This document shows positions 57,680 through 62,910 of a stretch of 64,000 bases of DNA, piece by piece. Location of the stretch: assembly GCF_006716115.1 (NCBI RefSeq), contig NZ_VFOO01000001.1, positions 3,410,001 to 3,474,000 of the forward strand, read 5' to 3'. The DNA comes from Subtercola boreus. GTDB taxonomy: Bacteria; Actinomycetota; Actinomycetes; Actinomycetales; Microbacteriaceae. The position numbers and the translations under genes were made by a program. The notes under the pieces were generated by a model. The model searched no databases. It was not told where the DNA came from and worked only from the letters and a program-made list of their open reading frames with translations. Within the stretch, counting starts at the first letter, position 1, and each line of letters starts with the position of its first letter.

Positions 57680-57944
57680 CGCTGCCGTGCAGACGCGGAA
57701 TGTTTCGTGAGCCTTTGACCGGATGGCTGGATGATCAGCTACAGCTGCCAAATTTGTCCGCTCAGCCGCCGCAAGCCGATATTGGATATTATGTCAAGAG
57801 GCTGATTTTAAGATTCGCAGAAGGCGCGAAGACTGCAAGACGCAAAAGCTAGGGCTCGAGGACCGGCCGGGCTTATGCACCACCACCGGTCTCGGCACAT
57901 CTCTGTGTGGCGGGGTGCGCATTACAGCTATGGCGCGGTGCAAC
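57680..57944. other. Non-coding AT-richer left edge of island
   Basis: These 265 bp contain no convincing gene. Base composition shifts to A/T-rich here (for example around 57775-57850), marking the boundary between the DeoR gene and the following island. A weak GACCGG/CCGGTC inverted repeat near 57860-57895 could end the minus-strand gene. Confidence 0.6.
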
Positions 57945-58724
57945 TCATCGCTTGACGGGCACCCGGCGAACCTCCACGAGTTTGTCACCCTCAGCCAGGC
58001 CGTCGACAGCTTCCTGCGGTACTGCCGCCTTAGTCTCCAGAGCCAGCGTAATCGCCGCGGGCAACTGTTGAACGGAAAGCCGGTCAAACGTGCTGGTTAG
58101 CTCTCGCTGGAAGTCGTACTTCACGTGCGTGTTCAACAAGATCTGTTTTTGCTCGTCGATGAAAGCCTCGGCTGCTATGACAGCGAGCCGTCGTTGACTC
58201 GCTTCCTCCGGGCTCATGCTCGCCCGGTATTGATCGAATGCTTCGTCTATGACTCGCGAGAATTCTTCGGGCGCCTTCTTGCTTAGGTCGGCAAGGTAGC
58301 TCGTAGCGGCCTGGGCTTCGCTCGGCACGGGTAGTTCCGCTGACCTAGCTAACTTTCGCAACTGCCTGCGCTGTAGCGCCGGGCGTACCGTCTCAACCCA
58401 CCATCTGCGAACACGCGGCATCGCCTTCTCATGAATGAAGACCGCGAGCTTGGTCAGTGCCACTAGCAACGCCAGCACGTCCGCGATCATCTGTTCGCGT
58501 TCTTCTGCCGTCATGGGTTCTTGTTCAGGCTGGGACAAATACTCGTAAACGTATTCATCGTGGTCCCCTGCCCTGGCGTCCTGGAAGAGTTCGGGCGGCC
58601 CGAGGAGCTTGCCCGTCTCGATGTCAAACAGGAGCGCTCGCTTGTTTCCGGCGGTGTCCTTAGACTCCGCCAGATACGCGCCCTTTGGCACTCGGACTCG
58701 GTAGGTTTCGCCGTCGTCAGTCAT
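57945..58724 (-). CDS. Hypothetical protein of the AT-richer island
   Basis: I do not recognise this 259-aa protein. The N-terminus (1-60) is beta-like with YRVRVPKGAYLAESKDTAGNKRALLFDIETG split over strands. A hydrophobic helix lies at about 81-98 (ADVLALLVALTKLAVFIHEK), then a strongly basic segment (RRWWVETVRPALQRRQLRK), then a long helical region. It is less GC-rich than its neighbours, suggesting transfer. It is divergent from the nuclease remnant and lies 650 bp from the GHKL protein, so a partnership is possible but unproven. Confidence 0.7.
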   Translation of the reverse strand: MTDDGETYRVRVPKGAYLAESKDTAGNKRALLFDIETGKLLGPPELFQDARAGDHDEYVYEYLSQPEQEPMTAEEREQMIADVLALLVALTKLAVFIHEKAMPRVRRWWVETVRPALQRRQLRKLARSAELPVPSEAQAATSYLADLSKKAPEEFSRVIDEAFDQYRASMSPEEASQRRLAVIAAEAFIDEQKQILLNTHVKYDFQRELTSTFDRLSVQQLPAAITLALETKAAVPQEAVDGLAEGDKLVEVRRVPVKR

Positions 58725-58917
58725 CGTCTTCTCCGTGTGTCGACGCTCTGTGCCGTTTGACCCTGCCGGTCTTCACAATGCTGCCCCCGCCGCCGCATTC
58801 AACTCTATAGAAGTGCGCCGACATGGCCCGAGCTGTGAATCGCTTACGCTGCCCGTCGTCGCATCGAAGTGGAGCCGGTGAGGACGTTCTGCGGGGCGCT
58901 AGCCTCATACTGCTTAG

Positions 58918-59169
58918 ATTTCGCTACGCCCGGCGAGCACCATCGGCTACATCCCCGCGAATGAGCAGGCCGGCCCGGAGCTGTACGCTCGCAACGACCT
59001 CGACCGCGGCCACCAGGTCCGCCGTCGCGACCCCGTCTGGGGAGACCTTGCCACCGCGACCGCCGCGAACCACGCCACGTTCGTGTACACCAACGCTGCA
59101 CCCCAAGCCGGGGAGTTCAACCAATCCGCTGAACTCTGGGCAGGCTTAGAAAACTACGTCCTCAACTAG
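58918..59169 (+). pseudogene. 3' remnant of a DNA/RNA non-specific endonuclease
   Basis: The frame reads PASTIGYIPANEQ, then ARNDLDRGHQVRRRDPVWG, and ends FNQSAELWAGLENYVLN with a stop at 59169. DRGH is the catalytic motif of the NUC (NucA-type) family. There is no start codon, and stops at 58879, 58900 and 58915 precede it in frame, so the N-terminal part is gone. It is a decayed nuclease fragment left inside the island. Confidence 0.75.
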
Positions 59170-59371
59170 CAACTGGGGGTGTCTGCGCGAACTTGAAGCC
59201 ATCGTCACGGCCTTGATTCGGCAGTGGAATCAGGATCATCCATTGCTTTTCAACTGAGGCTGGAGTTGCAAAGTGGAAAGCCTGAGAGTCAAGATCACTC
59301 CGTACCCGGCGAGGCGAGCGACCACGCCGCCCTCAAGCCGAGGAACCGGTACCTCATGCCATGCTGTGCTT

Positions 59372-61363
59372 ATGGAGAATCTCGACGTCGTCGTGGAGCA
59401 AGCGCATCTCGTCACACTCGCCAAAACACCCAGAGTTGCGCTGGCCGAGCTGGTCTGGAACGCGATCGATGCGGACGCCACGAACATCGCACTTGACGTG
59501 GAGTTCGGTGCATTGGGTGGCCCTGAAAAGATCACCGTGATCGATAACGGTACGGGTATTGCACCCGACGATCGCAAACAGACCTTTGGAGCCCTGGGAC
59601 ATTCTTGGAAGCGTCTCACCCAGCAGAGTCTCGGTGGCCGCGCCCTACACGGGAAGCGCGGCGAAGGTCGGTGGGCCGCACTGGGAATCGGCGATTCGGT
59701 CCGCTGGACGAGTGTCGCCGAAAGCACGGCAGACGGTCGAGTACGGTTCACCATTTCTGCGAACAAGGCAGAACTAAAGCGATTTGCCGTCTCAGACCTA
59801 TCGCCCGCCCTCGACGCCGAAACTGGCGTCACCGTCGAGATTGCCGCGCTGTCCCAGCGCGGCGCTGCGTATGCCGAATCAGACGCAGTGGTCGAAGATC
59901 TCTTGACGACCTTCGCTCTGCACATCGAGCAGTACGGACTTGACCTGTCCTGGCGCAGGCAACATCTCGATGTCGAAGCGCTCAAGAAAGACCAGGTCGA
60001 CATCCCGGTCCTCGTTGAAGGTGTTGACGGCTCAATCACTCTCACAGTGATCGAGTGGAAGTCTGCCGTGCAGCGGCATCTGTACCTCTGCGATGCTGCA
60101 GGAAACTCACTGCACGACATGAAGCCAGGTATCCAGGCTCCGGGCTATCACTTCACCGGATATGTGAAATGGGCGGGTTTCGCCGCCGATGCCGACCTGC
60201 TGACTCTCGAAGACGGTGCACCTGAGCCTATTAAGTCAGTCCTCGACGCGACTCGTGAGGCGTTGAAAACGCATTTCGCATCGAAAGAAGAAGAGCGCTC
60301 CGCCAAGCTCATCAAGCAGTGGCGCGACGAGGATTCGTATCCTTTCCGGAAGCCTCCAAAGAACAAGATTGAAGAGGCCGCACGCGGCATCTTCGACATC
60401 GTCGCAGTCGCGGCAGCTCCCGTGGTTGAGAAATCTGACTTCGCGTCACGCAAGTTCTCGCTGGAACTGCTGAAGAACGCAGTCGAGACGAGCCCGTCCA
60501 GCATTCGACACATTCTTGAGGAGGTTCTTAACCTCCCTCCGGAGCAAGCTAACGAGCTCAGTGATCTCATCAAAAAGACTTCCCTCGGAGCATTACTGCG
60601 CGCGGGCAACCAGGTCCTGGGTCGCCTCGAATTTCTGACCGGCCTCGAACAGATCATTAACGATCGCCAGCTGAAGAAATTAGTGACCGAGCGCCGCCAG
60701 CTCCACCGCATCCTCGCCGAAGAAACATGGGTGTTCCGCGAGGAGTACGCGCTTACTGTCGACGACAACACACTTCGCACTGCCCTCAGGTCACATACCG
60801 GGTTGTTAGGGCGGGATGATCTCACTCCTGGCGATTTGGACGAGCCTGTGGTCGACTCGGATGGACGAGTGATCGTTGTCGACATGATGCTCAGCCGTGT
60901 CATCGAACAGTCACGAAACCACCGCGAGCACATTGTGATCGAACTCAAGCGTCCGTCCGTGTCGATCGGGAAGCATCAACTTGATCAGATTGAGAACTAT
61001 GCCCAGACCGTAGCCAGCGACAATCGCTTTGCTGCGGTCCAGACGACCTGGGAATTCTGGATAGTGGGCGACGAGATCGATCCGCGCATCAAGCACAAGT
61101 TTGGGCAGGGCAATCTGCCAGAGGACGTGTATCAGGATTACTCCGAAGACGGTAGGCGCGTCACTATCCGGGCGGTCACTTGGGCTCGCATCATTCAGGA
61201 CGCACGTCATCGGATGAAGTTCGTGAAGGATGCACTCGGCTACGACCCAGACTCGGAAGCCAGCATCAACTATCTACGTGAACGCCACGGAAAGGTTCTG
61301 CCGTCTGTCTTTATGCCCAAAGCCTCGGCAAATGACGAGAACGAAGGCGCTTTTTCTGTCTGA
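59372..61363 (+). CDS. GHKL ATPase with C-terminal PD-(D/E)xK-like nuclease domain (candidate defence protein)
   Basis: A 663-aa protein, less GC-rich than the surrounding genes. The N-terminal Bergerat ATPase shows the N-box ELVWNAIDADA (Glu26, Asn30, Asp33), G1 box VIDNGTGI (Asp58) and G2 box LHGKRGEGRWAAL (about 92-104), as in Hsp90/MutL/histidine kinases. A middle helical region follows. The C-terminal part has Asp504 in VIVVDMML, Glu524-x-Lys526 in VIELKRP and Gln536, the order of a PD-(D/E)xK (Shedu-like) nuclease. I start at ATG 59372; GTG 59366 is possible and no SD is visible. It may cleave nucleic acid under ATP control. Function is inferred. Confidence 0.78.
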   Translation: MENLDVVVEQAHLVTLAKTPRVALAELVWNAIDADATNIALDVEFGALGGPEKITVIDNGTGIAPDDRKQTFGALGHSWKRLTQQSLGGRALHGKRGEGRWAALGIGDSVRWTSVAESTADGRVRFTISANKAELKRFAVSDLSPALDAETGVTVEIAALSQRGAAYAESDAVVEDLLTTFALHIEQYGLDLSWRRQHLDVEALKKDQVDIPVLVEGVDGSITLTVIEWKSAVQRHLYLCDAAGNSLHDMKPGIQAPGYHFTGYVKWAGFAADADLLTLEDGAPEPIKSVLDATREALKTHFASKEEERSAKLIKQWRDEDSYPFRKPPKNKIEEAARGIFDIVAVAAAPVVEKSDFASRKFSLELLKNAVETSPSSIRHILEEVLNLPPEQANELSDLIKKTSLGALLRAGNQVLGRLEFLTGLEQIINDRQLKKLVTERRQLHRILAEETWVFREEYALTVDDNTLRTALRSHTGLLGRDDLTPGDLDEPVVDSDGRVIVVDMMLSRVIEQSRNHREHIVIELKRPSVSIGKHQLDQIENYAQTVASDNRFAAVQTTWEFWIVGDEIDPRIKHKFGQGNLPEDVYQDYSEDGRRVTIRAVTWARIIQDARHRMKFVKDALGYDPDSEASINYLRERHGKVLPSVFMPKASANDENEGAFSV

Positions 61364-61726
61364 GGCCGCGCACGATCCAGTCGTTATCCTCTAGGACAGC
61401 CCGGACAAGATCTCGGGGTTAAGTTCGTTCAAGGCGGTCAGCAGAGTGCCTTGAAAACCTAAAGGTTTTTGAGGCGTCTCAGGTCGGCGCCTCCGTGATG
61501 TCTACGTCTTGCCGTTCTGGTGTTGTACGACGATTCGGCGGCTCGCCGAGCAGAGCGCTATGGGTTTGTGAGACACCGGCGTCCTTCCCTTCAACGGAGT
61601 GTTCTTCAGCGGTCTCCGCGCGGTAATCGTGAAATTTTTGTCAAAAAGCTGCTGTAGTACGTGTTTCGTTCTGGTCTTCTTGCCAGCCCGCAACCTGTCC
61701 GCGACCAACCGTTAAGGTTGTTCGAA
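61364..61726. other. Non-coding right edge of island with a terminator-like hairpin
   Basis: These 363 bp hold no convincing gene; the longest frames look non-coding. AAAACC at 61453 and GGTTTTT at 61463 form a short hairpin ending in T residues, a plausible terminator for the GHKL gene 90 bp upstream. The sequence is A/T-richer until about 61730, where the hemD-type gene ends. Confidence 0.55.
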
Positions 61727-62910
61727 CTAGATCGCGAGCCGGTAACCGCGCTTGATTACTGTTTCGACGAGCGCGGGCTGTGTGAGATTCTGCCTCAGCC
61801 TGCTCAGCGCGACTTCCAACGCATGGTCGTCGAGCATCGTGGGAGTGGAGGCCGCCAGGCTCACGCGGGGAACAACGTCGCCGCCGGCCGCAGCCAGAGT
61901 TCGGAGCAGCGCGAGCGAGGTCGGCGGCAGCACCGACCTCGTGCCGTCGAGCAGCACCACCGCGCCGCGGAGCTCGAGAAGTCCGTGCCGGGTCTGGAGC
62001 TGCGTGACGCGGTGCTGTTCGAGGTGGTCGCAGACGAGTTTGATCAGCGCGCCGAGGCGGAACCGCTGAGGCTGGATGACCGGGATCCCGAGCGCGATGA
62101 GGGGTTCCGCGGTGACCGGTCCCACGGCTGCCGCCAGGACGGCCGACCGGAACCCCCCGGCCACCTCGTTCAGTCTGCCGAGCGCTTCGGCGGTGCTGAT
62201 GAGTGCGTGCACAGCCGGCGCGCTCGTGAACGTGACCGCGTCGAGTTGCTGTCCCGCGATGGCCTCGATGAGACGCTCGACCCGCGGATCGGTGGTGTCG
62301 GGGCTCAGCCAGCGGTAGGGCGCGACGGTGAGCACCCGGTGCCCTGCGGCGCGCAGCCGGTCGAGTTGGTGTTCGTCGGTGTAGCCGTGCAGCTGGATGG
62401 CGACGGTCTGCGGGCTCGAGAAGTCGTTCAGAGTCTTCGTCACGAGACTCGCGGTGGTCTCCTGGTCGCTCATGCCCGTGTCATTGAGTCCAGCCGCGCG
62501 GATGCCGCCCCGAGCCTTCGGCCCGCGCACCAGGATGGTCGTGTCCTTCAGGGCGTCGAGCAGCTCGTCGCCGAGGCCATCGGCGTCGGCGACTTCGAAC
62601 CATCGGCGGATGCCATACGACGTCGTCGCCAGCAGAACGTCGGGCCGGGCGGCGATCATGGCGCGAGTGTCGGCCAGGATGGGTTCGTCATCGACCCGGT
62701 CGGCCATCTTCAGGGTGGGCGCGTGGAGCACGGTCGCCCCCCGGCGCTTCAGCGCGTCGATGAGGTCTTCTGATCGGCGATCGCTCGTCACCCCGATGCG
62801 GAAGCCGTCGAGCTGGTCGAAGCGGAACCCGACGGGGGCGGCATCCGTGGCCGGAGCACCGGCGGGAGCCGCCCCTGCCTCGGCGCGACCACTGTCCTCG
62901 GCCACGCGGA

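Follow-up and report, generated by a model that had tools for sequence, protein, structure and literature searches.

The combination of a GHKL ATPase with a restriction-fold nuclease in one protein was described in 2008 as paraMORC3 (Iyer, Abhiman, Aravind 2008; PMC2292703). The paraMORC3 proteins contain a GHKL domain, an S5 domain, and a nuclease domain with an E-D-ExK active site; some members are standalone genes, and the family is patchy and mobile (PMC2292703). The VcSduA protein of V. cholerae has the same build and was reported in 2025 as a GHKL and DUF4263 protein of Shedu type I-D, which confers phage defence in both E. coli and V. cholerae (PMC12137116). Expression of VcSduA alone is enough for activity in E. 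coli, and phage protection is abolished by either an ATPase substitution (E27A) or a nuclease substitution (K557A) (PMC12137116). Protection was similar across the range of phage doses tested, and the authors interpreted this as direct restriction in which the host survives (PMC12137116). For the canonical Shedu (SduA, DUF4263), the title of a Shedu paper cited in the same article points to sensing of DNA ends or structure.

The window analyzed here is a 64-kb stretch (64,000 nucleotides) of the Subtercola boreus genome, in which the plus strand encodes a protein of 663 amino acids at positions 59372-61363, including the stop codon. The ATG at 59372 is supported as the start, since the two closest relatives become similar in DNA sequence only 15-18 bases upstream of it; homologues cover most of the length of the protein. 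The N-terminal residues 1-160 (59372-59851, plus strand) form a GHKL (Bergerat) ATPase domain, which was matched by Pfam HATPase_c_3 above the cut-off (3.3e-17) and also by Foldseek. The ATP-binding site, which a sequence-only reading of this DNA had considered intact, is indeed complete: the N-box residues E26 (59447-59449) and N30 (59459-59461), the D58-N-G-T-G62 motif (D58 at 59543-59545), and the G94-K-R-G-E-G99 loop (G94-R100 at 59651-59671) are all present. In an alignment of 29 family sequences, E26, N30, D58, G60, G62, G97 and G99 are invariant in this domain, and D504, E524, K526, Q539 and Y543 are invariant in the C-terminal domain. Most of these 29 sequences are just 18-41% identical to the window protein, and therefore this invariance is not due to chance. 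The same reading had proposed a nuclease site of Asp504, Glu524, Lys526 and Gln536. The first three residues stand (codons at 60881-60883, 60941-60943 and 60947-60949), but Q536 is not conserved in the family, and the conserved catalytic glutamine is Q539 (60986-60988). A further invariant acidic residue, E457 in the sequence ETWVFRE (60740-60742), completes the classical E-D-ExK set.

The predicted PD-(D/E)xK domain covers residues 441-622 (60692-61237, plus strand). The profile of HSDR_N_2, a PD-(D/E)xK family, matched this region of the window protein weakly and below the cut-off (E 0.004-0.01); the same profile matched 28 of the 29 family members in the nuclease region, with a best value of 7e-7. 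The AlphaFold2 model of the full-length protein (mean pLDDT 81.5) suggests the domain order GHKL, S5-like, helical linker and PD-(D/E)xK. The S5-like or transducer domain was assigned from the predicted structure and Foldseek rather than from a sequence profile, and spans residues 171-272 with approximate boundaries (59882-60187, plus strand; pLDDT about 90). The helical linker, taken from the AlphaFold2 secondary structure, comprises residues 287-450 (60230-60721, plus strand), in part with pLDDT of 59-77. Foldseek matched the N-terminal half to structures of TRAP1 (Hsp90-type), the MutL N-terminus and MORC, over about 300-420 columns. Because the full-length searches returned this GHKL/S5 half, the nuclease domain was modeled separately (pLDDT 88, pTM 0.87). 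Its matches to solved structures were weak (best E 0.007), led by MspJI and McrC, with the E. coli SduA structure 8ps5 as the fifth match (prob 0.84, TMq 0.42). The motifs, the HSDR_N_2 matches and the domain model confirm that a GHKL ATPase and a predicted PD-(D/E)xK nuclease domain are located on one chain, and the C-terminal fold agrees with what had been proposed.

This architecture had not been recognised as that of a named system. That part of the earlier reading is not upheld, as paraMORC3 has had the same build since 2008 and VcSduA shares it; the window protein belongs to a known kind of architecture, and represents a distinct family within it. The paraMORC3 features found in the window protein include the intact GHKL motifs, the predicted S5 fold and the C-terminal E-D-ExK residues. 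The reference set for comparison consisted of six proteins: L082 (located with the SduA_C model), an Escherichia phage PhiR44_1 protein annotated as ParaMORC3, and four plasmid relatives. Plain BLAST between the window protein and L082 gave E 0.001, which is too weak to settle the homology of the nuclease half. A comparison of profiles, checked against shuffled and reversed controls, settled the full-length homology: hhalign aligned the family profile with the six references at 99.9% probability (E 2.3e-33, residues 4-625) and the nuclease domain alone with the paraMORC3 nuclease at 98.5% (E 1.5e-15); whereas column-shuffled controls reached 0-0.4%, and the shuffled and reversed controls all stayed below 1%. 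The identity in the profile alignment is about 16%. In a tree built by a quick method and containing long branches, the six references fell on one side of a branch with SH-aLRT of 100, and by these sequence comparisons the window family is a separate sister branch to the reference set.

The two groups have in common the GHKL, S5 and restriction-fold nuclease domains, mobility, and standalone genes. Their glycine loops differ, with LHG-x-x-G-x-G-R in the window family and G-[RK]-K-G-[IL]-G-K in paraMORC3. The spacing between the catalytic Glu and Lys is 497-518 residues in the window family, and 503-539 in the paraMORC3 set. Moreover, a C5-methyltransferase lies directly beside the gene in all six paraMORC3 references; whereas the window family as a rule lacks it. 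In a Pantoea relative of paraMORC3 (L084:2962-4944), a Met takes the place of the catalytic Lys in the alignment (LEFMRP), and this relative may be inactive or misaligned. VcSduA resembles the window protein as a single gene with GHKL and PD-(D/E)xK domains, and their catalytic residues appear equivalent (E26 and E27, K526 and K557); its Glu-to-Lys spacing of 530, a placement read from residue numbering, lies inside the paraMORC3 range and outside that of the window family.

A link to the Shedu domain DUF4263 had also been suggested, and it holds at the level of profiles. No match of SduA_C (PF14082)/DUF4263 to the window protein was found at E<=1, and the SduA_C profile search of its own genome gave none; the profile gave hits to four of the 29 family members, all with E of 0.005 or more. 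In the hhalign comparison, the alignment of the nuclease domain with those of canonical Shedu reached a probability of 94.8% (E 5e-8), against <=0.3% for shuffled controls. The nuclease domains of the two are thus related, but the N-terminal half of canonical Shedu is different from that of the window protein.

The gene is carried on a strain-specific segment of about 4.3 kb (57697-62014), which was delimited by blastn synteny between the window from 50 to 64 kb and eight regions of six genomes of the same genus. On the left, synteny is unbroken to 57684-57696, at the end of a DeoR gene; on the right it picks up at about 62015, inside a HemD gene. Both flanks of the insert are themselves variable within the genus, and metabolic genes flank it on both sides, with the window gene standing alone. 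The AT-richer composition pointed out earlier was borne out, with a GC content of 57%, compared with about 68% in most of the window, and a GC3 of 0.66 against 0.85-0.94 in the flanking genes. The closest relatives, in Agromyces albus (79% DNA identity) and in the genome G202 (72%), match the window over the gene only (59354-61318). The insert, the low GC3 and these gene-limited matches agree with the horizontal transfer that had been proposed. The window gene is under purifying selection, with a dN/dS of 0.056 against Agromyces. Full-length copies are few among 300 Microbacteriaceae genomes, and several copies are broken, namely a remnant with two stops in G001, a copy with one stop in G146, and split copies in G147 and G301 (broken-copy loci L004, L013, L014/L025 and L015/L024). 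Together, the rarity, the broken copies, the purifying selection and the insert point to an accessory gene that is under selection yet transient.

Two other features are located in the same insert. Just upstream of the window gene is a degenerate remnant of a DNA/RNA non-specific endonuclease (58921-59166, plus strand; Pfam Endonuclease_NS 1.8e-18, profile positions 63-128 of 223), of which the N-terminal part is gone. A hypothetical protein of 259 amino acids is encoded on the minus strand (57945-58724); it has no family match above the cut-off, and relatives occur in only two other of 150 Microbacteriaceae genomes. It was rejected as an operon partner, as neither genome with a relative is listed with a copy of the GHKL-nuclease gene.

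Homologues were found on 35 plasmid records, in two phage genomes, on viral contigs (27 loci of the family in the viral-contig scan), and in E. coli, Salmonella and Microbacteriaceae. Of 5426 complete E. coli genomes, 11 contain a copy that is 98% identical to the one in Salmonella; the E. coli satellite homologue has the accession WP_021536577. Two of the E. coli loci were read, and in each the gene is the sole occupant of the interval from psu to int in a P4-like satellite, a slot that is an established hotspot of anti-phage defence (PMC9122126). In two Pasteurella prophages, the gene is the solo cargo among tail genes. The plasmid copies have no fixed neighbours; however, defence genes recur around them. 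For example, Drt2, a C5-methylase and a LlaMI-family endonuclease lie near one copy (L032), type ISP restriction genes neighbour another, and an abortive-infection gene and a helicase neighbour a third. The closest Microbacteriaceae relatives adjoin TrwC relaxases, one of them also near an OLD-like ATPase and a Z1 protein; another Microbacteriaceae relative has a TrwC relaxase and HmaB/HmaC next to it, and one broken copy is flanked by a type III endonuclease on one side and Hachiman HamB on the other. The family thus has a recurrent place in defence hotspots and islands, as prophage solo cargo, in the P4 psu-int slot and among defence genes. The phage-defence role that had been suggested is probable as a candidate function and well supported by this context; plasmid restriction or general competition between elements would fit the same gene context. 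In the satellite of E. coli 1002W03, another gene (L090:737-1396, minus strand) encodes a protein with an HsdR N-terminal domain, which was weakly matched by the paraMORC3 nuclease profile (E 4e-4).

Taken together, we consider it likely, with good confidence, that the window gene was acquired by horizontal transfer and encodes a single-gene anti-phage nuclease, whose family is distinct from paraMORC3 and sister to it. The most likely mode of action is that of an ATP-gated DNase working without a dedicated methylase, its activity being predicted; the literature searched contained no phage assay of a family member. Two chains would dimerize through the GHKL/S5 module, and ATP binding would shut the clamp around DNA. 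The helical linker might then relay the closure to the two PD-(D/E)xK domains, which would cut foreign DNA; by analogy with VcSduA, this may amount to direct restriction of incoming DNA. The distinction between foreign and own DNA might depend on free ends, replication intermediates, phage modification or a phage protein, and not on host methylation. A structural or infection-induced cue is probable since no methyltransferase travels with the gene, and end or structure sensing would be the first candidate for sparing the host, by analogy with canonical Shedu. Given the activity of VcSduA alone, function without a partner methylase would not be unique to the window family.

Solo genes of prophages and satellites often act by abortive infection. 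The window protein could accordingly be an effector whose ATPase senses the phage and whose nuclease degrades the host DNA, so that the infected cell dies. The lack of a methylase fits a normally silent and indiscriminate nuclease, and the occurrence in prophages, in satellites and beside defence genes is also compatible with such a role; however, the similar protection by VcSduA at all tested phage doses (PMC12137116) speaks against it, and we regard this explanation as unlikely.

The restriction enzymes BbrUII and HgiDII suggest a further explanation, that of a site-specific Type II-like enzyme guarded by a remote methyltransferase or by host methylation. The BbrUII model (NCBIfam NF050001) matched the GHKL part of the window protein (E 2.7e-12, best stretch at residues 24-131), but with 46 bits the protein is far below the cut-off of 550 bits. 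The paraMORC3 reference L082/L091 (L082:73-2043), a GHKL-SduA_C protein adjoining a C5-methylase, matched the BbrUII/HgiDII model over its whole length (7e-78), which links paraMORC3 to named restriction enzymes. This suggests that paraMORC3 and the BbrUII/HgiDII family are one thing, although no statement of their equivalence was found in the literature searched; through paraMORC3, the window protein would share the same overall build. The C5-methyltransferase beside every paraMORC3 reference also argues for the Type II-like explanation, as do three window-family members located beside methylases (L029, L031 and L032). Against it, a C5-methylase profile matched in 5 of 48 family loci, counted over the fetched flanks, some of them short, and in just one of these (L032) is it near the gene, where it is accompanied by its own LlaMI-family endonuclease. 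Moreover, no methylase gene adjoins the family gene in the P4 satellites and Pasteurella prophages, no cognate methyltransferase adjoins the window gene, and no C5-methyltransferase was found in the 64-kb window. A Type II-like enzyme is therefore quite doubtful. A MutL-like protein for DNA repair or plasmid maintenance, unrelated to phage, is very improbable: by sequence, no solved structure comes nearer to the N-terminal half than MutL and MORC, and plasmids carry many of the copies, but the patchy presence of the gene, its decayed copies and its lack of a fixed neighbourhood argue against such a role, as do the defence genes that recur nearby and its place in the P4 psu-int slot.

The paraMORC3/BbrUII-like proteins work beside a methyltransferase, and the window family travels without one. 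A comparison of the two groups asks how an ATP-gated nuclease spares its host without methylation. It might tentatively be proposed that there are separate and widespread GHKL-gated nucleases that restrict phages without a methylase, using an ATP-dependent clamp to sense DNA structure or an infection signal, in contrast to the methylase-paired sister paraMORC3. PADLOC (2023 library) matched the window protein only with generic REase_II models in the GHKL part, and defence annotation tools may therefore miss this family. Since some members occur in P4-like satellites of E. coli, the question of self-sparing can be tested in a laboratory strain.

In a BFVD fold search, the top viral structural matches to the GHKL half included the phage RIIA proteins, which are known to play a part in phage exclusion. 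In view of this likeness and role, it may be worth examining whether attacker and defender share an ATPase module.
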